Positions 24,156-39,305 of a stretch of 39,605 bases of DNA are shown here, in pieces (the first letter of the stretch is position 1; each line of letters opens with the position of its first letter). The stretch covers positions 1-39,605 of the forward strand of contig PAJO01000057.1 of NCBI GenBank assembly GCA_002706085.1, given 5' to 3'. The notes beneath the pieces are model-generated. The model worked only from the letters and a program-made list of their open reading frames with translations. It was not told the origin of the DNA and did no database searches. The stretch is from Alcanivoracaceae bacterium (GTDB lineage: Bacteria; Pseudomonadota; Gammaproteobacteria; Pseudomonadales; Alcanivoracaceae). Both the position numbers and the translations under genes were made by a program.

Positions 24156-24962
24156 TTACTCCTCTGCCAGGCCAGCAATATAATCCTCAAACACGAGATC
24201 CAGCCCTTCTCCCAGGCCGACCTTGATCGCCTCGTTGAACTGTCTGGCCGACGGCGTAGACAGAAAATCCAGATAGCTTTCCAGCTTGTCGGCTTCCAGT
24301 TCCCGGTACGTATGGGCAAAAGACAGCATCACCGTCTTGCGAGTCTGCTCGGTAAGCAGCGCCCTGCGTTGCTCGAAGAACGCCTCCACATCCGAGGTAT
24401 CCACGGGCTGATCCGGGTTGTGTAACTTACGCACCTGAGTCTGAGCGGCAATCAACATGCGCTTTTGCAACGCCATGTTGTAATCCGTCAGGTGGAGCAA
24501 GGCATCAAACTGCGCCGCTTTTTCCATCATCGGCTCATTCGACAACAAGGCAGTGGCATTCTGCATCATGGCCTGGCGCGACGCCGGGGAGGACGCCTGC
24601 ACTTCCATCTCTGTAATACGCTTGCCCAATGGCGACTGGAACCACAGCAGCAGGGTTTCCAGCTGGTCGTCTTGCACCGCCGCCGACACTGCCTCGAACA
24701 CCTGCTGGTAAATCACTTCAGGCAAAAACGATTCCTTCGCCACATGAAGCATCACCTCGCCGCGCTCGGCATCCACATCCTGGGCCGACTGCTGCGCCTG
24801 CTCCAGACCGGCAATCACCGAGTCGGTAAGGCCAGTAATCTGCCCCTCAGCCCCCGCCAGATTCAACAGCCTCGCGATCTTGTCATTGCGCTCATCTGCC
24901 AGCGCATGGCCAGCCAGCAGTGCCAGCATCAGCCCCCATACCCAAAACCACGGTTGTTTCAT
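24156..24962 (-). CDS. DUF2059 family periplasmic protein
   Basis: The 268-residue protein has a cleavable signal peptide (MKQPWFWVWGLMLALLAGHA, cleaved after ALA at about 22) and a helical mature domain that includes the DUF2059-like region (QVFEAVSAAVQDDQLETLLL, then FQSPLGKRITEME). The SPLGKRITE stretch is the family hallmark. It is periplasmic, with unknown function. A second similar helical segment lies near the C-terminus (LESYLDFLSTPSARQFNEAI), so the protein may contain two divergent repeats. It lies 54 bases after the transporter gene on the same strand. Confidence 0.8.
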   Translation of the reverse strand: MKQPWFWVWGLMLALLAGHALADERNDKIARLLNLAGAEGQITGLTDSVIAGLEQAQQSAQDVDAERGEVMLHVAKESFLPEVIYQQVFEAVSAAVQDDQLETLLLWFQSPLGKRITEMEVQASSPASRQAMMQNATALLSNEPMMEKAAQFDALLHLTDYNMALQKRMLIAAQTQVRKLHNPDQPVDTSDVEAFFEQRRALLTEQTRKTVMLSFAHTYRELEADKLESYLDFLSTPSARQFNEAIKVGLGEGLDLVFEDYIAGLAEE

Positions 24963-27203: not shown

Positions 27204-28028
27204 ATGGCTGTTACTACGTCAGCAATGGACACAGACTGGCCTGGCATCGTGTTCAGCGAACAGACACAGGGCCGGATACGCGCCCTGTGCGAACGACGCT
27301 TCGGCCATACCACCGATGCGGAAATCGCCAGCGACTACGTGCTTGAACATCTGTGTGAAAGCGACTGGAAGCTGTGCCGGAAATTTACCGGCAAATCTCG
27401 CCCGGAAACCTATCTGTACACCCTTTGTAGCAACCTGGTAGAGGAATACGCCCGCAAACGCTTTGGCCGTATCCGCCCGCCCGCATGGCTGCAACAGCTG
27501 GGGGACGCCTGGCTCACGCTGTGGAAGTTCATCTGCCTGGAACGCCAACCGGTCCCGGTGGCCATCGAACGTCTGGCCGGTCAGGACGAAACGTTACGTG
27601 ACCCTGACACCCTTGAGCAGATGGTTCGCACCATCAAGGGGAAACTGCCCTGGTGTGGACAACAAACGGGCGAGGTCTCACTGGAAGAGCACTATCAGGA
27701 ACCGGACGTCAACGACACCGCATCCGCTGACACACTCGAACCCTTGCTGCTTCTGCTTCATCAACTGATTCTCGATGAAGAACCCGCCCGGCCAGCCAGC
27801 CAATGGCAGAGCACAGAGACGCTGCACGCAGTTCGTGCGGCACTGCGCCTCACCGATGAACAACGCCTGATACTGCGCATGGCCCATGTCGATGGCATCA
27901 AGTTCAGTGCGATTGCCCGCACGCTTAACCTGCCAGCCCATCAACCTGCACGACAGGCGAAACGGGCTGTGGCCCACATACGGGAAGTACTACAGGCGCA
28001 CCACTTGCTGCCGGAGGACTGGCAATGA
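27204..28028 (+). CDS. Sigma-70-like RNA polymerase sigma factor
   Basis: The 274-residue product has an N-terminal region-2-like helical part (TDAEIASDYVLEHLCESDW, then SRPETYLYTLCSNLVEEYAR). A C-terminal region-4 helix-turn-helix follows (LRLTDEQRLILRMAHVDGIK, then FSAIARTLNLPAHQPARQAK). An insert of about 100 residues lies between. This is longer than usual ECF factors and the region-2 promoter motifs are weak. The ribosome site AAGGAG sits only one base from the ATG, so the start is not certain. It is followed by a one-TM gene 61 bases downstream, typical of a sigma/anti-sigma pair. Confidence 0.75.
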   Translation: MAVTTSAMDTDWPGIVFSEQTQGRIRALCERRFGHTTDAEIASDYVLEHLCESDWKLCRKFTGKSRPETYLYTLCSNLVEEYARKRFGRIRPPAWLQQLGDAWLTLWKFICLERQPVPVAIERLAGQDETLRDPDTLEQMVRTIKGKLPWCGQQTGEVSLEEHYQEPDVNDTASADTLEPLLLLLHQLILDEEPARPASQWQSTETLHAVRAALRLTDEQRLILRMAHVDGIKFSAIARTLNLPAHQPARQAKRAVAHIREVLQAHHLLPEDWQ

Positions 28029-28089: not shown

Positions 28090-28878
28090 ATGAAAGAACA
28101 CACATCCAGCAAACGGCAGGGGGAGTACCTGAGCCGTATTGCTCTGGCGTTATCGGAGCGCCCCACTCTTCAGGGTACGCCACCGGATGATGAGGACATG
28201 GCGGCCTTACTGGACAATTTGCTGGACCCGCAGCGCCGTGCCGAGGTCATCAGCCACCTTGCCCATGACCCTGCGTTGTACCGTCGCTGGCACCGATTAC
28301 TCAACGATCAGGACCTGTGGGTCGAGCACAACAATGCGCTCAACCTGTCGAGCGCCGCACGCAAACCTCGGCGCTGGTGGCAACCGGCCGGCGGCCTCAC
28401 CGCAGCGGCAGCCGCACTCTTTGCTGGGTGGCTGGCACTGAAACCCGGCATGGATCCGCTGACACTGGATCAGGCCTATCAGCAATTTTCTCCCGAGCTG
28501 AGCAGTTACCTGGATGAACAACCCAACATGCGCGACCTGCCCGTTGCACAAGACGATGACATCAACGAGATCCTCGCCGGAATCCACGATGGGCAGCAAT
28601 CCCAAGGCGTACTGAGCAGCTTTGCCGGCATCGGCAAGGCCCAACTGGCCCTCGCCAGCGAACACTACCGCCAGCAGTTCGGCGAACAGCTCACCGTCCG
28701 CCATGAGTGGGGCCGCTGGCTACTGCTTAGCGATGCCCTCTGCAACACGGCGCCCGACAAACTGGAACAGCTCACCCGCCCCGCAGACATCGACGGCTTC
28801 GCCCCGCTGCCGGAAAGCGTCAGTTGTGATGACGTGACCACGCAGCGCAACGAGCTTCAGCAACGGTTGACGCGATAG
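28090..28878 (+). CDS. Single-TM protein, putative anti-sigma factor
   Basis: I do not recognise this 262-residue protein by family. It has a cytoplasmic N-terminal part (1-96), a basic stretch RKPRRWWQ (91-98) that sets the orientation, one membrane segment (about 101-117) and a periplasmic C-terminal part of about 145 residues. The N-terminal region has the EDMAALLDNLLDPQRRAEVI composition seen in zinc-free anti-sigma domains. Position directly after a sigma gene suggests an anti-sigma that senses an envelope signal through its outer domain. The periplasmic part would be the site for a regulatory protease. Confidence 0.6.
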   Translation: MKEHTSSKRQGEYLSRIALALSERPTLQGTPPDDEDMAALLDNLLDPQRRAEVISHLAHDPALYRRWHRLLNDQDLWVEHNNALNLSSAARKPRRWWQPAGGLTAAAAALFAGWLALKPGMDPLTLDQAYQQFSPELSSYLDEQPNMRDLPVAQDDDINEILAGIHDGQQSQGVLSSFAGIGKAQLALASEHYRQQFGEQLTVRHEWGRWLLLSDALCNTAPDKLEQLTRPADIDGFAPLPESVSCDDVTTQRNELQQRLTR

Positions 28879-29494
28879 CACAGTCACTGCTGCCCAAGCA
28901 CAAGTAGCTCCCCGTAGGAGCGTCGCTCGCGGCGCGATCACAAGCCAGGACCAAAGCCCTTTTCACCACAGAGTTCACAGATCCACAGAGAAATTTATTG
29001 TTCTAACTCAATGATCTCTGTGCCATCTGTGGTAACAGTCGCCTTCAAGGTTTGGATTATCGCGCCGCGAGCGACGCTCCTACAGCAAGATCAGGCGCAT
29101 TTTTTGTGACTGATCCTGCCTTCCAAAAAACACGACAACACCTGCAGGAGTGATCGTTCGCTATGCCCTCCGGGTACGACCACGATTCGCGGTGGAACCA
29201 ACGCTCCCACAAAGCTGCTCCAGCTTCTCCTCGCAAGTTGCCCACCCCGCAGAAGCGTCGGTTATTCGCTGCGCCCGCCCTTCGGGCCGCCCTGCGGGCG
29301 TTCCTTCGCTACGCTCGGTGACGGCGCGATAACGAACCAGGATCTTTTCACCACAGAGGTCTCTGTGGCCTCTGTGGTGAAACTACCTTTGTTGTTTTTG
29401 TGGGAAGTTCAGCAAGCAGAATCTCCCACCGGACATCCATTTCTCCAAAGGCAAACTAAAACGTTAGGGGCAGCACATTCTCGCAATTCCGCGA
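28879..29494. repeat. Inverted-repeat-rich non-coding region
   Basis: No gene is supported in this long gap. A perfect 25-bp inverted pair, 28914-28938 and 29059-29083, begins GTAGGAGCGTCGCTCGCGGC and flanks about 120 bases containing TTTTCACCACAGAG at 28960. A 14-bp hairpin at 29346-29382 (TTTCACCACAGAGG / CCTCTGTGGTGAAA, 9-base loop) reuses the same CCACAGAG word. A REP-like TTCGCGGTGGAACCAACGCT unit is at about 29186-29210. The two repeat families (GTAGGAGCG and CACCACAGAG) are interleaved, so one may have inserted into the other. Confidence 0.7.
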
Positions 29495-29527
29495 TAAAAA
29501 AACCGCCTGAAAAGGCGGTTCTTTTTA
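29495..29527 (-). terminator. Rho-independent terminator, works on both strands
   Basis: The stem AACCGCCT / AGGCGGTT (29501-29508 and 29513-29520) with loop GAAA has A7 before it and T5 after it on the plus strand. It therefore has a T-run on either strand and can end the caspase-CHAT operon on the minus strand as well as any read-through from the sigma/anti-sigma pair. Confidence 0.85.
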
Positions 29528-29550
29528 CTTCACCATCCATTGGACGGGGG

Positions 29551-29898
29551 CTACTTGGCGGGCTCCATAGCACCGCCCTGCGTCTCATGGGCTTCACTGC
29601 TGAAGTCCAGTTTGTCATCCTTACCCATGTACTCTGGCTTGCCTGCATCACCACCTGCGTCCAGGGCATCACCTTCCAGAGAACGGGTATTAACACAGCG
29701 CTGGATGTAACAAGCCTGTCCCCAAGGGGTGCGAATTGCGCACTCCTGCAATGCAATACTCACCGCAGTAGAACGTGAGCTGGAGCTACCCCACCCCCAG
29801 GCAGAGGGGCTGGCTGCATCACAGCGCCAGGCCAGAGCAGGGCTGGATGCCAGCCCGAGTGTCGCCATAATCGCAAAGGTTCCGACCATTTTTTTCAT
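29551..29898 (-). CDS. Small secreted Cys-containing protein of unknown function
   Basis: The 115-residue product has a signal peptide (MKKMVGTFAIMATLGLASSP, cleaved after ALA) and a mature part with a short Cys-rich core: WRCDAA, then STAVSIALQECAIRTPWGQA, CYIQRC. The AxxIALQECxxxxxxGxxC pattern resembles DUF4189-like domains. The C-terminal half is acidic and low complexity (DALDAGGDAGKPEYMGKDD). A GGAAGGAAA ribosome site precedes the ATG. It is 78 bases after the caspase-like gene in the same direction and just before the terminator, so it is the last gene of that operon. It could be a substrate or inhibitor of the proteases, which is conjecture. Confidence 0.7.
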   Translation of the reverse strand: MKKMVGTFAIMATLGLASSPALAWRCDAASPSAWGWGSSSSRSTAVSIALQECAIRTPWGQACYIQRCVNTRSLEGDALDAGGDAGKPEYMGKDDKLDFSSEAHETQGGAMEPAK

Positions 29899-29976
29899 AA
29901 CATTTCCTTCCTTTTGAACATTATTTTTAACCTTGTTTTCTCACCTTAAGCACAGAAAAACCGCTCGCGATGCGGC

Positions 29977-32046
29977 CTAGTGACTGACCTGCCAGGTAAA
30001 AAGATTCAATCCTGATGACTGCGGCGGCTTGCTGCTACCGAGCCCACGGGTAGAGACATTCAGCGGTGCCTGTTGCAGATATCCCAGATTACTATTCACT
30101 CCATCACCAGGCTGACTGCTTACCAACAGGTGCTCCATACCCACGGTTTCCACATTCACATCCCACTCAAAGTTCAGCGACTCGCCGCCGTCCAAACGGT
30201 TAGGCTGACCACTTTCCGGGTACAGCTGGGTAACCCCATACTGGCTGTCCACAAACAGGATGCTGACATCCTGGGCCTGACGTCCCTTGTTCGTGACACT
30301 GAATAAAATGCGGTCACCCTCGGTCAGCACCGGCTGGCCATTCACCGGAAACTCGCTCTGCTCACCGTCATGTTCAATGCGGAAACTCACCTTGAGCTGC
30401 TGCTGGGCACCGGGCAGGTGCTGCACGCTGGACATCAAGCGGGTGACGTTCGCGATCTTGCTCAGGCCACCTTGCAGGACCGCCAGCTGGCGATCCTTGC
30501 TGTCCGGCAATGCCAGGTTGAGCAGGCGTTGCGGCAGACGGGTTTCGGCACAAACCTTGCGCGCCGCTTCTGCCAGCCGCTGCTCTTCGCAGGGCAGGCT
30601 CTGATCTGCCTGCAGGAACCACAGCTGCTCATCAAACTCGCTGACCAGAATGTCGGCGGCATCCAGTGCCGACACCTTGATCCCGATGCCAGACTTCTCG
30701 ATTTCTGCCAACGCCTTCTGCAGGCGCTTCTCGTCCTTGTTGCTCATGGAGGCGGATGGCAACAGGGCCACGTTGACCTCGGTCGTCAGCACCGGCTTGT
30801 CCAGTCGTACGTACAACGTTGCCGGCCAGTCCTTGCTTTGTTCTTCCTCCGGCATGGCCCAGCTACGCACCGGGGTAGCACCATCCAGCCTCACTGTGCC
30901 GAGCGCGTTCTTTGCCTTGCCTACCGGCGAATCGTAGATCGTCACCGTGGCCCCCGTGCCCAGCAGCGACAGGGAGCCCGCCTGAATATCCAGCTTGCCG
31001 TTCTTGAAAGTCGCAAAATAAGACGGCTCTGGCGGAGCATCGTCATTGAATACCGGCCGGCTCATGTCGCTGGCACTGAATAACGGCTGGGTCGCCTGCC
31101 ACGGCAAGCTCTGGTAGCGGGACAGCACCTGCTGGGCCAGCTGCTGATAGCTCAGCTGCGGGTTGGCCCCAAGCACTTCCATCAAGGTGTAGGTGAAAAG
31201 GCCATGAAAACGGCGGTCCGGCGCCCCGCGAGGCAGTTTCATTTCCGGTGTGGTCTCTGCACTCTGCGCCGCAGAGAAGGCAATCAGCTCACCTCGCTTG
31301 CGCGGCGGTTCATCTTCCGGCGTACCGCTGAACACCTCTCCCAGGAAACCCCGCGCCCGGGTCTCGGACACCATGGGGGAGGGACGGTGAATTAATGGTG
31401 CGTCGGGAATCCCCAGGACCGCACTGTCCACACGGCGGTACTTTACCTCCGGCATGGCCGTTGCCCCCCGGGTCATGGTGCCGGAATGACAACTGTCAAA
31501 CACCAGCCACACATCGGCCCCGCGATCACGAATACGGTCAACATAGTGGGCGATTTCATCATCCAGAATCGCGTTCTTTACCGAACCGATATAGCTGTCC
31601 CATTCCGCAGCATCGGTGGGCAAAAAGATTTCATCCAGCCCGTCGGGCTCGGTATTGTCCGTGGCCTTCGCCGGCTGGCGGCTACCATGACCGGCGAAAT
31701 GCAGGTAATAGAAATCATCTTCGCTGGCAGATGCCGCCAACCGCTCCAGCGCCGCCAGAATATTAGCCCGGGTAGGCAGGGTCTTGCCTTCTGCAGTAAT
31801 CAGCTGCTCGATATTGTCCTGCTTGAATCCGCGCTGACGCAGCATGGCTTGCACGATTTCAGCATCATGGGCAGGGCCATCCAACTGCAGGGAGGCCGGC
31901 AGATTTGGGTAATCCGCCACCCCTACCAGCAAGGCATGCCTGGCAGCCTGTACCGGTGACACCAGCATGCCACCCGCCAACATCGCGCCGCACAGCCACT
32001 TCCCGGTTCCCGATAGCGTCATTGTTCCTGCACCCATACTGTCCAT
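29977..32046 (-). CDS. Exported caspase-family protease with DUF4384-like C-terminus
   Basis: The 689-residue protein has an N-terminal signal (GKWLCGAMLAGGMLVSPVQA) and a peptidase C14 caspase fold (about 37-300). The catalytic dyad is His120 in HFAGHGSR and Cys186 in DSCHSGT. The downstream region includes LFSASDMSRPVFN-type strands, and a C-terminal DUF4384-like domain (FRIEHDGEQSEFPVNGQP, then VTQLYPESGQ). The start is uncertain: ATG at 32046, 32037 or 32022 are all possible, and only the last has a near AGGA. Caspase-family proteases cut after Arg, Lys or Asp; specificity here is unknown. It starts 57 bases after the CHAT gene ends. Confidence 0.9.
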   Translation of the reverse strand: MDSMGAGTMTLSGTGKWLCGAMLAGGMLVSPVQAARHALLVGVADYPNLPASLQLDGPAHDAEIVQAMLRQRGFKQDNIEQLITAEGKTLPTRANILAALERLAASASEDDFYYLHFAGHGSRQPAKATDNTEPDGLDEIFLPTDAAEWDSYIGSVKNAILDDEIAHYVDRIRDRGADVWLVFDSCHSGTMTRGATAMPEVKYRRVDSAVLGIPDAPLIHRPSPMVSETRARGFLGEVFSGTPEDEPPRKRGELIAFSAAQSAETTPEMKLPRGAPDRRFHGLFTYTLMEVLGANPQLSYQQLAQQVLSRYQSLPWQATQPLFSASDMSRPVFNDDAPPEPSYFATFKNGKLDIQAGSLSLLGTGATVTIYDSPVGKAKNALGTVRLDGATPVRSWAMPEEEQSKDWPATLYVRLDKPVLTTEVNVALLPSASMSNKDEKRLQKALAEIEKSGIGIKVSALDAADILVSEFDEQLWFLQADQSLPCEEQRLAEAARKVCAETRLPQRLLNLALPDSKDRQLAVLQGGLSKIANVTRLMSSVQHLPGAQQQLKVSFRIEHDGEQSEFPVNGQPVLTEGDRILFSVTNKGRQAQDVSILFVDSQYGVTQLYPESGQPNRLDGGESLNFEWDVNVETVGMEHLLVSSQPGDGVNSNLGYLQQAPLNVSTRGLGSSKPPQSSGLNLFTWQVSH

Positions 32047-32103
32047 TGCTGTTGAATTGGGATGGCCAGCGAGCCGCTTTTCGACAGCAATGAAGATTGT
32101 TTT

Positions 32104-35100
32104 TTACGGTTTCCCGAACAAGGTAAACGCAGCCCACGCTGCCGGCTCGGAATACCGTCCCCCTTCCTCAATCAGGGCCCGTTGAGCCTGGGCCATGGCA
32201 ACCAGATACCCTTCCCCGGGATATTCTCTCAGGTTGCCATAAAATTGCTCCATCAACCGGGCCGTCGCCCCGTCATCCACTTTCCAGTAGGACGCAATCA
32301 CGGTAGGCACGCTGGCCAGCGCAAACGCCCGCGCCAACGTCGCATACTCCAGACCCGGTTTGCCGATACCGGTTTCACAGGCCGACAACACAACCAGATC
32401 GGTCTGATCCAGGGTCAGACCGGCGATATCAATCACGCTGAGGCGGTAGTTATTGGCCAATAACAGGTAGCTGTCTGCCGGCACCGCCGGATCAAGATTA
32501 CCATGGGTCGCCAGATGCACCACCCGGGCATCCTGCACCGCACCCGCCAGATTCGCATAGGTGGCAGAAGCGCCCTCAAGCACGGTGGGAGCCACCAGTG
32601 CTCCCCGGGCAATCCGGCTCACTTCCTGCCGGGCCCCAGGCAAGCTGCCATCCGGATCGGCCACCATGGTCAAACCGTCACTGAAGGATTCGTTCTGCTG
32701 CAGCACCAGGCTGAGGTGATACATGGACGGAATGACACCGATGTTAAAACGCTCGGCGGCATACTCGCGCACATCGCCTTCTTTCTTGCGTAACAGCGCC
32801 GGGAACGGCAAATACGTCAATGCCCCTACCGGTGTGACCAGTACCTGCTGCTTGCCTTCCAGCTCACGCTCCACCGGCCGCAGTAACTTGTCATACAACC
32901 AGGCCAGGCTGGCATCCTGCGCATCGTCATCAGGCCCTGCCGCACGCTCCCCGGAAGCCGACAACCCGCGGTCATTGCCCGTCAGATGCGCTGCCCGGTA
33001 CCGCATGCCTTTTACCACCAGCGCACTGGCGGCCTCCAGATCCGCACGGCTAACCTGCACTTCACGAATTTGCGCGCCCTCACGGGTTACCAGCTGGATC
33101 AGCAACTTTTCCGGCGTCGGCAGATACTGCACCAGCGCCTGATCCTCACTCAGACGCTGGTGCAAGGCGGCCACTTCACGGGGGTCCAGCTTGAGCATCT
33201 GGTACAACCCCGCATGCTCTGCTTCCATGCGTGCCAGCAACGTTTCCCGCAACCGGTTCTTGCTCTTCAGTTGCTGCCGCAGACGCTCAGCACGGGGCGA
33301 ATCCGACACGCCCTTTACTGCACTGCCGGACGCCGCCGCCCCACTCAAGGTTGCAGCATCCGCCTCGGGCACCGGCTGCGCCACCCGGGTTTCCAGCTCG
33401 CGTATCTGCGCTTCCATCTGCCGGTAGCGAGCCAGCATTTTCCCGGCGTCACTGTCACCCGATATGGCAGGCAGGAAAATATCACTGAGCGCCTGTTGCT
33501 GTTGGGTGTCCTCTTCACGGAAAGCAAGCTGACCGAAATGGTTGTCATTGAGTAACGACGCCACCCCTTGAGAGTCATACAGCAACAGCCCCAGGTCGGT
33601 GCCCACATAAACCCGACCATTGCCGGCCACCGCTACCGCATGCACAGTGCGCCCACCGTATTGGCCCAGTGCGGCGTCCTCCGGCAATAACTGATTCAGA
33701 CGATCCGGGTACAGCCAGGTGCCGCCGTGATACAACAGCACCCCGCCCGCCGACGGGAACAACCAGCTATTGCTCCCCTGGAAACGCGCCCCCTCGCCCC
33801 CCAGCCACAGCAGTGGGGTCTTGTCCGCCAGTGCCTGGTAACTGGGATCGTTGAGCTCGGCAAACGACTGCCGTGCGCCCCCCGTCAGTTCACGGGCGAA
33901 GGTAGTGTTGGTGCCAATCACCGCCGTTCTGTCATCCACCGGTGTGTAGCCTGTGACAAACCAGTGTGGCGGCTTGCCCACATGCTCGAAACCGCTGCCA
34001 GTCCAGCGCAGCAACCCGCCAGACAACGACACCCCCTGATGGGTCAGATGCCCCTCATCGGATGCCACCACTTCGATCTCGCCCGCCAGGGTTTCATGCA
34101 CCCCCGCCAGCATCGGGCTACGTGACGGGAAACGTTCGCTGTCGAGCAGATAGTTGAACTCGGTGAGAGTCTCTTGGCGGTAACGGAACAGGGACGAACC
34201 GGACACCACCCACAAGGTGCCTTCGCGGTCCACCAGCATGTCGACCACGCCACCTTGCCAGCCCTTTTCTTCGACCGCAGGCCGCGCGGAGAACAACTCC
34301 TGGGGCTGATCGCTGCCGGCAGGAAAACGCAGAACCGTGTAGCCGTCATGGGTGAGGAGATTGCCGTGTTGATCCTCTGCCAGCACACGGGCATTGGCCG
34401 AAGAAAAATACTGGGCTGACTCCAGTGGCTTATCATTGCCCAGCAACAAAATGTGGTCCCCCATGGCCACATAAAGACTGTTAAGCGTCTGACTCACCAA
34501 CAGGTCGTACACCGGCGCTTGCTGCAGCTGCTGCGCGCCCTCGCCAAGCCGGGTGTACACACCCTCGTCGCTCAGCACCACCACGCCACGCGAATCACTG
34601 AAAGAGTGCCGCGGCCCGACAGCCATGCCCCCGCGTTGCTCGGCAAACGGCAGCGCCAGCGCCTCAAAATAGTGGCCCTGCAAGACATTCATGGCCCGGT
34701 CGGTACTCACCACCAACGCTTCCTCGCCACTACCCAGGTCCCACATCGACAGCCCATGAACCTGTTTTGACAGCAGCAAGTCACTGTCCGTGGCGACCAG
34801 CTCAGCATCCTGCTGCAGCCACTCCCAACGCCCGTTTTCATCCGTCACGGCATGGGCAAAGACCTGATTGCCCTCCAGCCGGTAAACCCGCATGCGCCCC
34901 ATGTCGAAGGTCATGTCCTGCCCCCGCCCCAGACTCACGGGAGCGTCACCAGACAACAACCACACCTGATGGTTGGCGCGGTAGAGCAAGGCATCGGGTC
35001 GGCCAGGCAAGCGGTAGAGCTGATCAATGGGATGAGTACCTGCCGCCGTAACGGCCTGCGGGTTCGCTTGCGCATACTCCAGCACCACCAGCCCGGCACC

Positions 35101-38100
35101 GGTCCCCGCCCATACACGGCTACCGCGTGACGTGAGCGATATGACCCGTGGCGACGGCAAACCTTCGGCCACACTCCAGCGTTTCAGGTCACCGTCGTAG
35201 TCTCCGGGAATCGCCAGCAAGCCCTTGGCCGTTCCCAGCCAGAGAATGCCATCCTCGGTTTCTGTCACGGCCAGAATGTTGGCGCGCGCATCCTGCTCCG
35301 ATAGCACTGCAGTCGCCGACAGCCGCTGCTGGCGAAAATCAAACCCGTACCAGTGCCAATAGCCTTCGCGCAGCACCGACAATCCCTGGCTGGTGGCCAC
35401 CACCACATCTCCGTTGGCACGCATCACGACCTGATGTTTTTCTGTCCCTGCCAACGCCTTGCCAAACAGCTCATGATCGCCGTACCGTTTCCAGTAAGCG
35501 GTATTGCTGAAATCGGAACGCTGTAACCGGTGGGCATCCCGAAGCAACGCCAGTGGAGCTTCATTGACTGCAGCCAGGGCTTTGCGCAACGTGGACGACG
35601 ACGCCTCCAGTTCCGCACTGCGTAACCAGTTCCAGGCCTCCGACCACTCACTGAAGGTCTCCTGCGGCAGCCCGCGCGGACGCACCTCCCGATACAGTTG
35701 ATGCAACAGCGTCACCGCCTGGGCACCCCGGTGGCGGAATGCCTTTTCACGGGAGTGGACCTGCGCGGTCGCCACAACGCCATACAACAAACGCTCGGAC
35801 TCTCCGACATAGTCAGGGTCGTCCCCTACCTGGCCGATCAAATACTTCGCCAGCGCCAGCGCTGCCTTCTGCTCCTCCGCACTGTGGTATTCGGTGTCTT
35901 CGTACTCCACCCGCAGGGCATCCACCTGTGGGTCGTTCACGCTCAGACGCGGCAACCGTTTCACATCGTGAATCCGCTTGACCTGATTGACCATGCCCAG
36001 CAGCGACTGGAACGAACGGGTGATACGCAACGCCATCTGCTGACCCTGCTCAGAATTCACCGACAGAATCTCGCCCTGCTCGTCGTACGCTACCTCCAAC
36101 ACGCCCACATCCTGCTCGACGATACGCACAGGCTTGCCCAACGCATTGTAGGTAAAGTGCAGCGTGCCCTCCGGGCTGATCAGCGTGCGGATATGGTCAT
36201 CCTTGTCGTACAGCAACGTCATGGATTGGCCGCTGGAATCTTCAATGCGGGTCAGCTGCCCGGTCTCGGTATACCCCAGGCGCATAAACGTGGCGCCCCG
36301 GGCAAAGTACAAAGGCTTGCCAAACACCGGGTGATCCTGACGCACAACCTGCTCGCCACTGGGCAGCAGAATCTCCACCCCGGGGATCTCGCTGTCGAGC
36401 TGATAAAACACCCGAGTACCATCAGCGCTAAGAGCATCACGGCGGGCCTCATCGAACCAGCGGGTATAGCGCAGTGACGCCGAGGGGCGCATGCCCGCCA
36501 CGGTGTAACGCTCGAAACTGGACAGGGAATCCCCCAGATTCCCCAGCGCCCGGCGCTGCCATTTCTTGTCCACACTCACACCGCGGGTTTCGGCATCATT
36601 GATGGCCTTGAGTGCCACAATCGAACTGCCCCCCCACAACAAATGCTTGTGCAGAAACGACGCCACCTTGCTGCTGTCGTAGGGCGATCGCGCCAGCATC
36701 CGGGCACCGTAGCCAAAGGTCTTGTCGGCTCCCAGTTCATTGGCATAACGCGCCACCAGATCATGAAAATGGCTGGTGCTGTCCTGCTGATAAGCACTGC
36801 GCTGCGCCAAGGACTGTGCCGCACAGGACTTGTCCCCCCGCGCCAGACAAAAGGCTTCCCGGTAACGCAGATAATCCATGTAATGGCCATGCCCGCGGGC
36901 AAATTCATCAAACGCCGTTTGCGCCTCACGCAAAGTCTCGCTATCCACCCGCTCCTGCCGGGTCTGGTTTTCATAGACCCAGGCGCCGTACAGCAACATG
37001 GACTGGCGGGCACTCAACCGCCCCGTGGACACGAAACGCTCATGGCACTGTTGCGCCCAATCGTGGGCCTGGCGCCACGCCTTGGCAGACACGTAATAAT
37101 CAATCAGCGCCTCACAACCAAACGTCTCCGTCGGCGCAGCGACAATCGCCGCTTCCCATAGAGCCGGCTCCTCGCCAGCACCGTGCTGCTTTGCCAATTG
37201 CCATGACGCCTTTTCCCAAGGCATGCGTTCCTGCCGCTGAACCACAAAACGTCGTGCCGATGCCTCCCCCCGTACGGCCAACAGGACGTCATAGGTCTGG
37301 CTCAGATAGTCGAGGGAATGGCCATGACGGGCCAAGCCGTCTTCCAGCAACGCCAGCGCCGAGGCCTGGCGACCCTCGGCCACGTCCTGCCGCGCCTGAC
37401 GCAACAACAGCTCACGGTCATGGGGGTAATAGGAACGGGCCTCGCGCAGTAACGCCTGGTACCTCTGGGTATCCTGCAGCGTCGCCAGATCTTCCAGAAC
37501 ACTATTGAGCAGGCTGGCAGACGGCATGCCAACCCGTTCGCGGTAACGCTCAAACACGCTAACGCCACCGCGCGGATCACCACTGTCGCGGTACGCCTGC
37601 AACCAGTCCGCCAGTTGCCCGGACGAAGGACTCTCGATCAAGGGGAAACCGGTCGCGGCCGCCGCCAGCGCCTCATCCGGTCGCTGCTCTGCCAACGCCA
37701 GACGCGCCTGCTCCATCCACAGCCGGCCCTCGTCCGGGTAACGAGCCAACGCCTCCGACAAGGCGCCCCGCGCAGCACCCTTGTCACCGTCATCCAGCAG
37801 GCCTGCCGCGTAATAACGCGCCGCGCGGGCCGGCACGCCCTCGTTTCCATACCAGCGCGCCAGGCCTTCCGCCACGCGCCGGGCCCGGTCGTGCTGACCG
37901 GTTTTAATCAACAGCTCCATGGCATCACTGCGTCCCGCATAAAACGGAAAGCGTGCCAGCCCCGCCATGTGGCTCTCGACCGCCTCTCGGTAATAGCCAT
38001 TTCCCTTGAGCGTCAATGAGCGGGCGACCAAGGCCCGACCATCGTGGGGCCAGCGCTCAAGGTAGCGCTCCACATGGGCCAGCTGATCACTGTTCTTCCA

Positions 38101-39234
38101 ACTGTGTTGCGGCACCACCGCCTGGAGATAGCCCCCCGTAAACCCGCCATGCACTGCCTCGGCTTGCGCAAATGCCGCCGCCCGCTCTCGCATCCCTGGC
38201 TGATCCAGTGCCGTCATGTTGTCGAACATCCAGGCCAGCTGCCAGTGATTGGGCGCCAGCGTAACCGCGGTTTCCAGGTAGTCGTAAAAGACCCCGAACT
38301 CACCCAGATCCCGGGCCGAATCGGCCAACTCCACCAGGGCATACACCTCACCGAGCCGATAGGTCGCAGTCGCCGGGAACGCCTTCCAGGCTTCACGGGG
38401 GGCGGCATCCACGGCCATCAGCACCTGTGGCGTTATCCCCAGAGCCTGCTTCAGGGCCGGCGACGCCTGTGTCAACGCCGCTTCCAGGGTGTCCTGGCGG
38501 CGGTGCACCGCACTCCAGATATAGGGCGCGAGAGGATGGGGATAGGAGGACTGCAAATCCTGGCCCAGGCTGGCCAGCAAAGCCGCCTCGTCACCCGACC
38601 AATAGAGGGCACTCCAGTAGCGGACGCGATCATCATCAAAGTCCAGTGTCACAACATCCCGGGAGGGCGGTGTCGGGGTAGCAGCAAGCAAAACGCCCAG
38701 TGCGTCGAACCGCCCCCAGCCAATCGCCAAATCCATTGGCGTCAGCCCGGTGGCATCCCGCTGCAGAGGTGACAGGCCGCCCTTAAGGAATCGCTCGCAC
38801 AGCGCCACCTCACCGGCCTGGGCACACCAGTGCAGTGCTGACTGCCCACCCCCGTTAAACTGATCCGGCTTCGCCCCATGACGAAGCAACCACTGGGTCA
38901 CCTCACCCCGCCCTGAAAGCATGCTGACCTGCAATGGCGTCTCGCCACTGGCAGAGCTCTGGGTCACTGGCGCCCCCGCGTCCACCAGCAGCTTCACCGC
39001 AGCCAGATCCCCCGCACGCACTGCCAACAACAATGGGGAATCACCGATCCCATCCGGCATCGACGCCAGACCAGGGTCCGCTTTGAGCTGATCGGCCATG
39101 GCATCGTGATCCGCCATCGCAAGCGCATCCAGCAAGGGTGAGGCCGCCACGGAGAGCGACGCCGTCAAAATCCCGGCAAACACCACCCCACGGACACCCG
39201 CCCTGGTCCAACCCCTAAACAGGAATGAAGTCAT
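32104..39234 (-). CDS. Giant exported CHAT-domain protease with ankyrin, helical, RHS-like and propeller regions
   Basis: Starting at the ATG 39232-39234 (MTSFLFRGWTRAGVRGVVFA, a signal peptide), the product has 2376 residues. In order: ankyrin repeats (about 60-200; GDSPLLLAVRAGDLAAVKLL), a long TPR-like helical region (about 200-900), an RHS/YD-like strip at about 950-1060 (TGQLTRIEDSSGQSMTLLYD), a two-component-regulator-like beta-propeller at about 1270-1890 (EDGILWLGTAKGLLAIPG), a coiled coil (about 1920-2020), and a CHAT domain at the C-terminus. The CHAT dyad is His2244 (HLATHG) and Cys2286 (LSACETG). The upstream TTG frame to 39324 has no support as a start; the ATGA overlap with a leader ORF favours 39234. 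Confidence 0.88.
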   Translation of the reverse strand: MTSFLFRGWTRAGVRGVVFAGILTASLSVAASPLLDALAMADHDAMADQLKADPGLASMPDGIGDSPLLLAVRAGDLAAVKLLVDAGAPVTQSSASGETPLQVSMLSGRGEVTQWLLRHGAKPDQFNGGGQSALHWCAQAGEVALCERFLKGGLSPLQRDATGLTPMDLAIGWGRFDALGVLLAATPTPPSRDVVTLDFDDDRVRYWSALYWSGDEAALLASLGQDLQSSYPHPLAPYIWSAVHRRQDTLEAALTQASPALKQALGITPQVLMAVDAAPREAWKAFPATATYRLGEVYALVELADSARDLGEFGVFYDYLETAVTLAPNHWQLAWMFDNMTALDQPGMRERAAAFAQAEAVHGGFTGGYLQAVVPQHSWKNSDQLAHVERYLERWPHDGRALVARSLTLKGNGYYREAVESHMAGLARFPFYAGRSDAMELLIKTGQHDRARRVAEGLARWYGNEGVPARAARYYAAGLLDDGDKGAARGALSEALARYPDEGRLWMEQARLALAEQRPDEALAAAATGFPLIESPSSGQLADWLQAYRDSGDPRGGVSVFERYRERVGMPSASLLNSVLEDLATLQDTQRYQALLREARSYYPHDRELLLRQARQDVAEGRQASALALLEDGLARHGHSLDYLSQTYDVLLAVRGEASARRFVVQRQERMPWEKASWQLAKQHGAGEEPALWEAAIVAAPTETFGCEALIDYYVSAKAWRQAHDWAQQCHERFVSTGRLSARQSMLLYGAWVYENQTRQERVDSETLREAQTAFDEFARGHGHYMDYLRYREAFCLARGDKSCAAQSLAQRSAYQQDSTSHFHDLVARYANELGADKTFGYGARMLARSPYDSSKVASFLHKHLLWGGSSIVALKAINDAETRGVSVDKKWQRRALGNLGDSLSSFERYTVAGMRPSASLRYTRWFDEARRDALSADGTRVFYQLDSEIPGVEILLPSGEQVVRQDHPVFGKPLYFARGATFMRLGYTETGQLTRIEDSSGQSMTLLYDKDDHIRTLISPEGTLHFTYNALGKPVRIVEQDVGVLEVAYDEQGEILSVNSEQGQQMALRITRSFQSLLGMVNQVKRIHDVKRLPRLSVNDPQVDALRVEYEDTEYHSAEEQKAALALAKYLIGQVGDDPDYVGESERLLYGVVATAQVHSREKAFRHRGAQAVTLLHQLYREVRPRGLPQETFSEWSEAWNWLRSAELEASSSTLRKALAAVNEAPLALLRDAHRLQRSDFSNTAYWKRYGDHELFGKALAGTEKHQVVMRANGDVVVATSQGLSVLREGYWHWYGFDFRQQRLSATAVLSEQDARANILAVTETEDGILWLGTAKGLLAIPGDYDGDLKRWSVAEGLPSPRVISLTSRGSRVWAGTGAGLVVLEYAQANPQAVTAAGTHPIDQLYRLPGRPDALLYRANHQVWLLSGDAPVSLGRGQDMTFDMGRMRVYRLEGNQVFAHAVTDENGRWEWLQQDAELVATDSDLLLSKQVHGLSMWDLGSGEEALVVSTDRAMNVLQGHYFEALALPFAEQRGGMAVGPRHSFSDSRGVVVLSDEGVYTRLGEGAQQLQQAPVYDLLVSQTLNSLYVAMGDHILLLGNDKPLESAQYFSSANARVLAEDQHGNLLTHDGYTVLRFPAGSDQPQELFSARPAVEEKGWQGGVVDMLVDREGTLWVVSGSSLFRYRQETLTEFNYLLDSERFPSRSPMLAGVHETLAGEIEVVASDEGHLTHQGVSLSGGLLRWTGSGFEHVGKPPHWFVTGYTPVDDRTAVIGTNTTFARELTGGARQSFAELNDPSYQALADKTPLLWLGGEGARFQGSNSWLFPSAGGVLLYHGGTWLYPDRLNQLLPEDAALGQYGGRTVHAVAVAGNGRVYVGTDLGLLLYDSQGVASLLNDNHFGQLAFREEDTQQQQALSDIFLPAISGDSDAGKMLARYRQMEAQIRELETRVAQPVPEADAATLSGAAASGSAVKGVSDSPRAERLRQQLKSKNRLRETLLARMEAEHAGLYQMLKLDPREVAALHQRLSEDQALVQYLPTPEKLLIQLVTREGAQIREVQVSRADLEAASALVVKGMRYRAAHLTGNDRGLSASGERAAGPDDDAQDASLAWLYDKLLRPVERELEGKQQVLVTPVGALTYLPFPALLRKKEGDVREYAAERFNIGVIPSMYHLSLVLQQNESFSDGLTMVADPDGSLPGARQEVSRIARGALVAPTVLEGASATYANLAGAVQDARVVHLATHGNLDPAVPADSYLLLANNYRLSVIDIAGLTLDQTDLVVLSACETGIGKPGLEYATLARAFALASVPTVIASYWKVDDGATARLMEQFYGNLREYPGEGYLVAMAQAQRALIEEGGRYSEPAAWAAFTLFGKP

Positions 39235-39305
39235 TGAATATGCCCCAGCAGCCTCAAGAAACAGTAACGACTGAGATGGCCATCCCCCACAAAATCGACA
39301 GCCAT
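39231..39305 (-). CDS. Leader ORF (24 codons) overlapping the CHAT gene start
   Basis: A GGGAGG ribosome site (39315-39320, minus strand) lies 9 bases before an ATG at 39303-39305 and 6 before an in-frame GTG. The frame (MAVDFVGDGHLSRYCFLRLL and four more residues) ends in TGA that overlaps the CHAT ATG as ATGA. The CHAT ATG itself has no good ribosome site, so translation may be coupled through this leader. It may be chance; no conservation could be tested. Confidence 0.45.
   Translation of the reverse strand: MAVDFVGDGHLSRYCFLRLLGHIQ

Follow-up and report, generated by a model that had tools for sequence, protein, structure and literature searches.

The DNA studied here, contig PAJO01000057.1 of an Alcanivoracaceae bacterium (assembly GCA_002706085.1), has a length of 39,605 nucleotides and is referred to in its entirety as the window. 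The host is a marine oil-degrading bacterium. On the minus strand, from position 39234 to 29551, the window contains the genes encoding a protein with a CHAT domain, a metacaspase-like C14 protein (hereafter the caspase) and a small protein, in that order. Our analyses indicate, with a probability of about 0.6, that these genes belong to an envelope-located protease module controlled by its own extracytoplasmic function (ECF) sigma factor, P0005, which would be held by a membrane anti-sigma factor, P0004. The initial annotation of this region described three open reading frames (ORFs) forming a unit that ends at a strong terminator. The ORFs are present as stated, their gene order was confirmed as conserved, and the hairpin located 3' of the small gene is computed to be stable and has a T-run attached to it. 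The P0005 and P0004 genes, which are convergent with the CHAT and caspase genes and lie outside the region annotated initially, were overlooked, as were the promoter-like elements. The features of the locus are as follows.

32104-39234, minus strand: CHAT protein of 2376 amino acids (aa); ORF, Pfam and NCBIfam profile matches, alignment.
29977-32046, minus strand: metacaspase-like C14 protein of 689 aa; ORF, Pfam, alignment, predicted structure.
29551-29898, minus strand: small Cys-containing protein with a signal peptide, type A, 115 aa.
28090-28878, plus strand: membrane anti-sigma-like protein P0004, 262 aa.
27204-28028, plus strand: ECF-type sigma factor P0005, 274 aa; TIGR02937.
39274-39300, minus strand: ECF-type promoter-like element TGTCGA-N15-CCATCT, 39 bp upstream of the CHAT start.
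32060-32086, minus strand: ECF-type promoter-like element TGTCGA-N15-CCATCC, 13 bp upstream of caspase Met1 and 37 bp upstream of Met9.
29501-29520, minus strand: terminator-like hairpin and T-run after the small gene (listed by the scan on the plus strand, fold computed for the minus strand).
28903-29974: exchange cassette that includes the small gene and has no match to the otherwise 98.8%-identical Alcanivorax profundi locus.

To describe the distribution of this arrangement, one genome per species was scanned with a caspase profile, and the best 80 of 191 relatives were kept, corresponding to 79 loci. All the kept loci were scanned with profiles; L042 and L069 gave no ORF match there. Among the window and these best 80 relatives, the genes for the CHAT protein, the caspase, the anti-sigma-like protein and the sigma factor occur together in eight loci of the genera Alcanivorax, Marinobacterium and Pontibacterium: those of the window, A. 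profundi, A. nanhaiticus, Alcanivorax sp. DP30, Marinobacterium lutimaris, M. mangrovicola, an uncultured Marinobacterium and Pontibacterium granulatum. Because two pairs of close relatives are included, the eight loci represent about six lineages. Within the family, the caspase is present in 8 of 46 genomes and the P0004 family in 7, all of which are among those 8 (Fisher 1.5e-7, a value not corrected for relatedness). In three of these seven genomes (G032, G033 and G037), which are additional to the eight loci above, the sigma pair and a CHAT orthologue stand head to head, with the caspase gene at a distance of 10-26 kb. The CHAT frames in these genomes encode 2496, 2762 and 2771 aa, respectively, the one of G037 being backed by a profile match. 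The sigma pair is divergent only in these three genomes; in the window and its seven close relatives it is convergent with the CHAT and caspase genes.

P0005 matches the ECF sigma model TIGR02937 with 46.4 bits (cut-off 42.9), and its matches to the Pfam models of sigma regions 2 and 4 are under the cut-off. The stretch between these two weak matches is unusually long, about 125 aa, and the orthologue of G037 (L024:775-1698) has further insertions at this position. The P0004 gene follows after a gap of 61 bp. P0004 has an anti-sigma-like N-terminal region, one transmembrane segment at about residues 100-118, identified by eye, and a C-terminal part of about 140 aa that is presumably periplasmic. 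Weak anti-sigma matches were obtained for members of the P0004 family, namely to zf-HC2 for six of nine (best E 0.021) and to RseA_N for three of nine (best E 0.0099); the NCBIfam antisigma model scored 16.6 against P0004 (cut-off 100). The structural model of P0004, with a predicted local distance difference test score (pLDDT) of 72.9, is helical on either side of a poorly modelled middle. The P0004 profile also has three distant matches in other families of the class, and each of the three is encoded directly behind an ECF sigma gene, whose products score 97.2, 96.2 and 92.6 bits against TIGR02937 (same cut-off as above). P0004 would presumably bind P0005 and inhibit it.

A comparison by eye of upstream regions yielded the promoter-like motif TGTCGA-N15-CCRTCY. 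Exactly two copies are present in the window, one before the CHAT gene and one before the caspase gene (0.01 expected; two copies were reached in none of 100 shuffles), and the whole genome to which the window belongs contains nine copies, including these two. With nine exact copies in that genome, a broad regulon of the sigma factor, strictly defined, was rejected, also in view of the absence of the element before the CHASE2, S230 and C1375 genes described below. We then built a promoter matrix from five Alcanivorax sites. With this matrix, sites that had been held out were recovered before the CHAT gene (p x n of 0.033 for L028 and L029, 0.002 for L031 and 0.015 for L033) and before the caspase gene (0.007 for L031 and 0.003 for L033). 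The element is positioned 37-45 bp upstream of the CHAT start in all eight loci. The caspase gene probably starts at Met9 (position 32022), which has AGGA just upstream, and with this start the spacing of its element is 37 bp. The presence of these elements makes the CHAT and caspase genes the likely output of P0005, which we infer to read them.

Judged by its sequence, the CHAT protein is a clan-CD protein with an intact dyad. The CHAT domain (PF12770, residues 2108-2374) scores 183.6 bits, compared to a cut-off of 24, and the dyad residues named in the initial annotation, His2244 and Cys2286, are invariant in the eight orthologues. The best solved match of this domain by sequence is Csx29 (8d9h; E 2.7e-4), in which the dyad positions are also occupied by His and Cys. 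The N-terminus resembles a signal peptide and is followed by ankyrin repeats (about residues 45-170), a TPR-like region, a YD/RHS-like region (about 988-1043) and a Reg_prop propeller (at about 1319). Of the sensor-rich layout that had been proposed, the ankyrin and propeller regions were recovered, the RHS repeat is borderline (21.6 versus a Pfam cut-off of 22, and 24.5 versus 15.8 for the NCBIfam YD model, which it thus exceeds), and the TPR matches remain under the Pfam cut-off. When scanned with PADLOC, the ankyrin segment matched the Ankyrin, PDC-M72A and MzaA models, and apart from these only a caspase model was matched.

The second protease has a C14 domain (PF00656; 69.0 bits, cut-off 21.4). 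Its dyad, assigned initially to His120 and Cys186, aligns with that of solved metacaspases, including the Yca1 C276A entry 4f6p, which has an alanine at the aligned cysteine. In an alignment of the window caspase (P0002) with 28 homologues, both residues are among the invariant columns of the 29 sequences, and so are Asp61 and Asp184, which would correspond to the acidic pocket residues of Arg/Lys-specific metacaspases. Their invariance suggests that the caspase has Arg/Lys specificity. The predicted structure (pLDDT 80.5; predicted template modelling score 0.72) has the metacaspase AtMCA9 as its best structural match (E 1.2e-16), and the protein carries a further C-terminal region of about 350 aa. 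A search of plasmids identified distant caspases only (57 records, all below 60% identity).

Both proteases had been annotated as having signal peptides, and a simple rule with controls supports this. The rule demands a positive N-region, an uncharged hydrophobic stretch and a small-x-small site, and it leaves the exact cleavage sites uncertain. All eight CHAT proteins, all eight caspases and all six small proteins passed it. In the controls, it was passed by none of four sigma factors and, within the CHAT and caspase proteins, by 7 of 356 starts at an internal Met and 21 of 1600 internal starts drawn at random. The N-region of the window caspase is weakly charged when read from Met1. Apart from the nearly identical protein of A. 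profundi, the CHAT orthologues share 18-42% identity with the window protein over their first 44 residues, versus 67-85% for the CHAT domain, which indicates that the signal-peptide feature has been kept and its sequence has not. We infer from these features that the CHAT protein and the caspase are periplasmic.

Several observations weigh against a dedicated sigma switch. In the fetched flanks, the sigma pair was not seen near the related caspases of two Vibrio loci, a second Pontibacterium locus, Amphritea and Marisediminitalea. The matrix did not find the element before the caspase gene of L028, L029 and L030, nor before the CHAT gene of G033 (p x n 0.14), the only one of the three distant CHAT genes that was scored. 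The five sites used to train the matrix had been selected by eye, and a downstream Met was taken as the CHAT start in L031 and L033. Upstream of the sigma genes themselves no clear copy of the element was found, with only a weak one in L031. Operon-free genus-mates have 0-5 element matches per genome, versus 5-9 in the operon-bearing ones. The G037 sigma orthologue scores below the ECF cut-off (35.1 versus 42.9), and P0004, which reaches the cut-off of no curated model, scores 15.4 against zf-HC2 (cut-off 22.2). One P0004 family member also matches EAD1, and a Foldseek comparison of the P0004 model with the PDB returned nothing below E 2.

The first of these observations bears on an explanation in which the proteases are periplasmic housekeeping enzymes of ordinary envelope maintenance, with the sigma pair next to them by chance. 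Related caspases are indeed widespread, and several are found beside CHASE2 proteins without this sigma pair. However, the caspase is absent from all but 4 of 17 genomes of the genus, which marks the module as accessory, and the P0004 family tracks the caspase (7 of 8 genomes with it versus 0 of 38 others). In addition, the sigma pair stays with the CHAT gene even where the locus is rearranged, and the promoter-like elements tie the proteases to the pair. We consider a maintenance function with a chance neighbour very unlikely. With the sigma/anti-sigma pair and the promoter-like elements, the proteases have the appearance of a regulated output under a switch of their own.

The related caspase loci of Marinobacterium, Pontibacterium, Vibrio, Amphritea and Marisediminitalea contain at least one of the following: a CHASE2 membrane protein, a WD40-C14 protein of 1700 aa, another of 1375 aa and a protein of 225 aa. 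The 1700-aa gene (L028:12071-19878, L029:12600-19414 and L031:13414-19386), which encodes a third clan-CD protein in Marinobacterium, is located on the strand of the sigma and anti-sigma genes: it comes after the anti-sigma gene, in the same orientation, in M. lutimaris and M. mangrovicola, and before the sigma gene in the uncultured Marinobacterium. A Vibrio cluster (L043:36-18136) encodes a 2360-aa CHAT protein, a 222-aa protein, a caspase, a CHASE2 protein and a WD40-C14 protein, and no sigma pair was seen in the fetched stretch. Elsewhere in the genome of the window, contig 22 (L117:8873-11887) encodes a CHASE2 membrane protein, a 270-aa protein and a 225-aa protein of family S230, members of which lie next to caspase genes in Vibrio, Pontibacterium and Amphritea. 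Contig 9 of this genome (L118:9850-14043) contains a frame of roughly 1400 aa matching the clan-CD WD40-C14 family C1375, in a stretch that includes some N. The promoter-like element was not found upstream of these CHASE2, S230 and C1375 genes, for which the start codons were chosen by hand.

The third gene of the operon behaves differently from the other two. It was looked for by close reading of the window and L027-L033, and gene lists were also made for L034, L035, L040, L043 and L055. The initial annotation had asked whether the three genes co-occur across genomes: the CHAT-caspase neighbourhood is conserved, but a small secreted third gene is present in only six of the eight loci. The window, L029 and L033 have a type A gene (52-54% identity to the window protein), and L027, L031 and L032 have a type B gene that is unrelated to type A; profiles of the two types found neither in L028 and L030. 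A uniformly conserved three-gene operon was rejected, because the small gene comes from two families or is not found. The proteins of both families are of the secreted type and contain Cys, and the invariant residues of type B include repeated Lys/Arg-Gly sites.

Pairwise comparisons delimit the variable segment. Over the CHAT and caspase genes, the window shares 98.8% identity with A. profundi; the match stops two bases short of the caspase gene end and takes up again 24 bp past the anti-sigma stop codon. Between L028 and L029, which are 89% identical there, the break is located four bases short of the caspase gene end, and the sequences match again about 0.1 kb into the next gene. For L031 and L033 the break lies ten bases before the gene end, which is weak evidence since the two are only 70% identical in DNA. 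Among 390 genomes sampled from the order, the window genome alone has type A and Alcanivorax sp. DP30 alone has type B, in each case inside this operon. From these sequence comparisons, the third gene looks like an exchanged cassette, as is the case for specificity or immunity genes.

Such an exchange raises the possibility of a conflict or cell-death system, in which the small protein would be an exchangeable specificity part (a bait substrate, an inhibitor or a secreted effector) that is released or controlled by the caspase. The alternation of two unrelated small secreted Cys-containing families behind the caspase, the end of homology 2, 4 and 10 bp before the caspase gene end in the three pairs compared, and the restriction of each family to one of 390 genomes would all fit such a role. 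Moreover, the combination of the invariant Asp61 and Asp184 of the caspase with the repeated Lys/Arg-Gly sites of type B means that the small protein could be a caspase substrate. On the other hand, a 99.6%-identical caspase is found behind the two unrelated families, which speaks against a tight protein-protein fit; the occurrence of type A, type B or no small protein behind nearly identical caspases likewise argues against a fixed partner. Two of the eight loci lack a recognizable small gene, one of the three breaks is weak, and the PADLOC matches are limited to the caspase, Ankyrin, PDC-M72A and MzaA models. We therefore regard a conflict system as possible but doubtful. The initial interpretation is supported in part, namely for two clan-CD proteins with intact dyads and export signals that are encoded next to each other; its suggestion that one protease may activate the other is conjectural.

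The preferred reading, a protease module switched by its own sigma factor, could operate as follows. P0005 would be kept inactive by the membrane protein P0004, the C-terminal half of which would be located in the periplasm. An envelope event would remove or displace P0004, possibly through a host site-1 protease or through the CHAT protein or caspase itself, and the freed P0005 would then transcribe the CHAT and caspase genes, each from its own TGTCGA-N15-CCRTCY promoter. The gene for the small secreted protein would be transcribed by read-through from the caspase gene. The CHAT and metacaspase-like proteins would be exported and act in the periplasm, and sensing would probably fall to the CHAT protein, by way of its ankyrin, TPR-like and propeller regions. 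Besides the P0004-P0005 interaction, the use of these promoters by P0005 and the periplasmic location, the presumptive parts of this model include the proteolysis itself, the triggering event and the targets.

If the exported proteases themselves were to release P0004, the module would form a feedback loop: the CHAT protein or the caspase would cut the periplasmic part of P0004, regulated proteolysis would free the sigma factor, and the proteases would be both activator and output. This would be the inside-out counterpart of Csx29-Csx30-CASP-sigma. In favour of it, the best solved match of the CHAT domain by sequence is Csx29. Csx29 cleaves Csx30 and thereby relieves the inhibition of the ECF sigma factor CASP-sigma, a motif for which is present in its own locus, and the site-1 protease of RseA is DegS (PMC10028731). 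Exported proteases could reach the C-terminal part of P0004 if this part is indeed periplasmic, and the sigma pair of G032, G033 and G037 remains with the CHAT gene and not with the caspase gene. Against a loop of this kind, the cleavage site in P0004 is hypothetical, the match to Csx29 is weak (E-value as above; 20.6 bits for the NCBIfam Csx29 model versus a cut-off of 300), and DegS is another kind of protease. We consider the loop unlikely. Its fullest version, in which the exported proteases sense envelope attack or damage and cleave their own anti-sigma factor, so that the ECF sigma factor boosts the proteases together with the exchangeable secreted protein, is likewise unlikely; if true, it would constitute a periplasmic, self-amplifying caspase alarm with a specificity part that is swapped between strains.

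Some further features surround the operon. The region between the convergent units contains repeats similar to repetitive extragenic palindromes, including a perfectly complementary inverted pair of 25 nucleotides (28914-28938 and 29059-29083, 120 nucleotides apart), and a further similar copy at 29315. A DUF2059 protein is encoded at 24156-24962, and homologues are encoded near the sigma gene in three other operon-bearing genomes of the genus, with identities of 86% in G006 and about 37% in G005 and G010. In the window and in G006, a BCCT transporter gene is located between the DUF2059 gene and the sigma gene.

Among the publications listed in a literature search, mostly with the beginnings of their abstracts and in several cases limited to the top 8-15 matches, none describes this arrangement. 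The available parts of the two reports on sigma-linked CHAT and caspase systems (PMC10028731 and PMC8195603) describe no exported protease. The export signals, the membrane anti-sigma-like protein, the candidate promoter and the swappable third gene together offer a direct handle on the role of such proteases in the envelope, and the swapped cassette provides natural variants for finding a substrate or an inhibitor.

The nearest precedent is Craspase, the type III-E CRISPR system with the TPR-CHAT protein Csx29, Csx30 and CASP-sigma. Common to both are repeat domains on the CHAT protease, sigma-type motifs inside the locus and an ECF sigma factor with an inhibitor (presumed in our case). In contrast to Craspase, the locus studied here encodes proteases with export signals, a presumed inhibitor located in the membrane, a further protease of the C14 type and, in most cases, a small secreted protein. 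Membership of Craspase was rejected on the basis of the low Csx29 model score given above; no search aimed at Cas7-11, Csx30 or a CRISPR array was made. A second precedent is formed by the EACC2-caspase systems with an ECF sigma factor (PMC8195603). The EACC1-caspase systems likewise combine a caspase with an ECF sigma neighbourhood, and a sensing role has been proposed for EACC1; some carry CHASE2 domains that are described as extracellular, so that the sensor domain may be outside, but an exported caspase is not described in the text available. The locus studied here adds a CHAT protein and a membrane anti-sigma-like protein, and membership of EACC1 was rejected since NF047832 scores 35.2 bits versus a cut-off of 140. 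As in RseA-RpoE-type systems, a membrane inhibitor (putative in our case) with a presumed periplasmic domain is encoded next to an ECF sigma factor, but the likely output here consists of CHAT and C14 proteins, and P0004 matches RseA_N and zf-HC2 only weakly. The caspase shares the C14 fold, the dyad and Asp61/Asp184 with metacaspases (GSU0716, 3bij; Yca1; AtMCA9), and is distinguished from them by its signal-peptide-like N-terminus, by a C-terminal extension of some 350 residues and by the ECF-type promoter element ahead of its gene. The arrangement appears to resemble alarm systems known from bacteria, but with a predicted location outside the cytoplasm. On our best reading, the link of CHAT and caspase proteases to an ECF sigma factor is already known, and what is new is the predicted placement in the envelope, the membrane anti-sigma-like protein and the exchangeable secreted protein.

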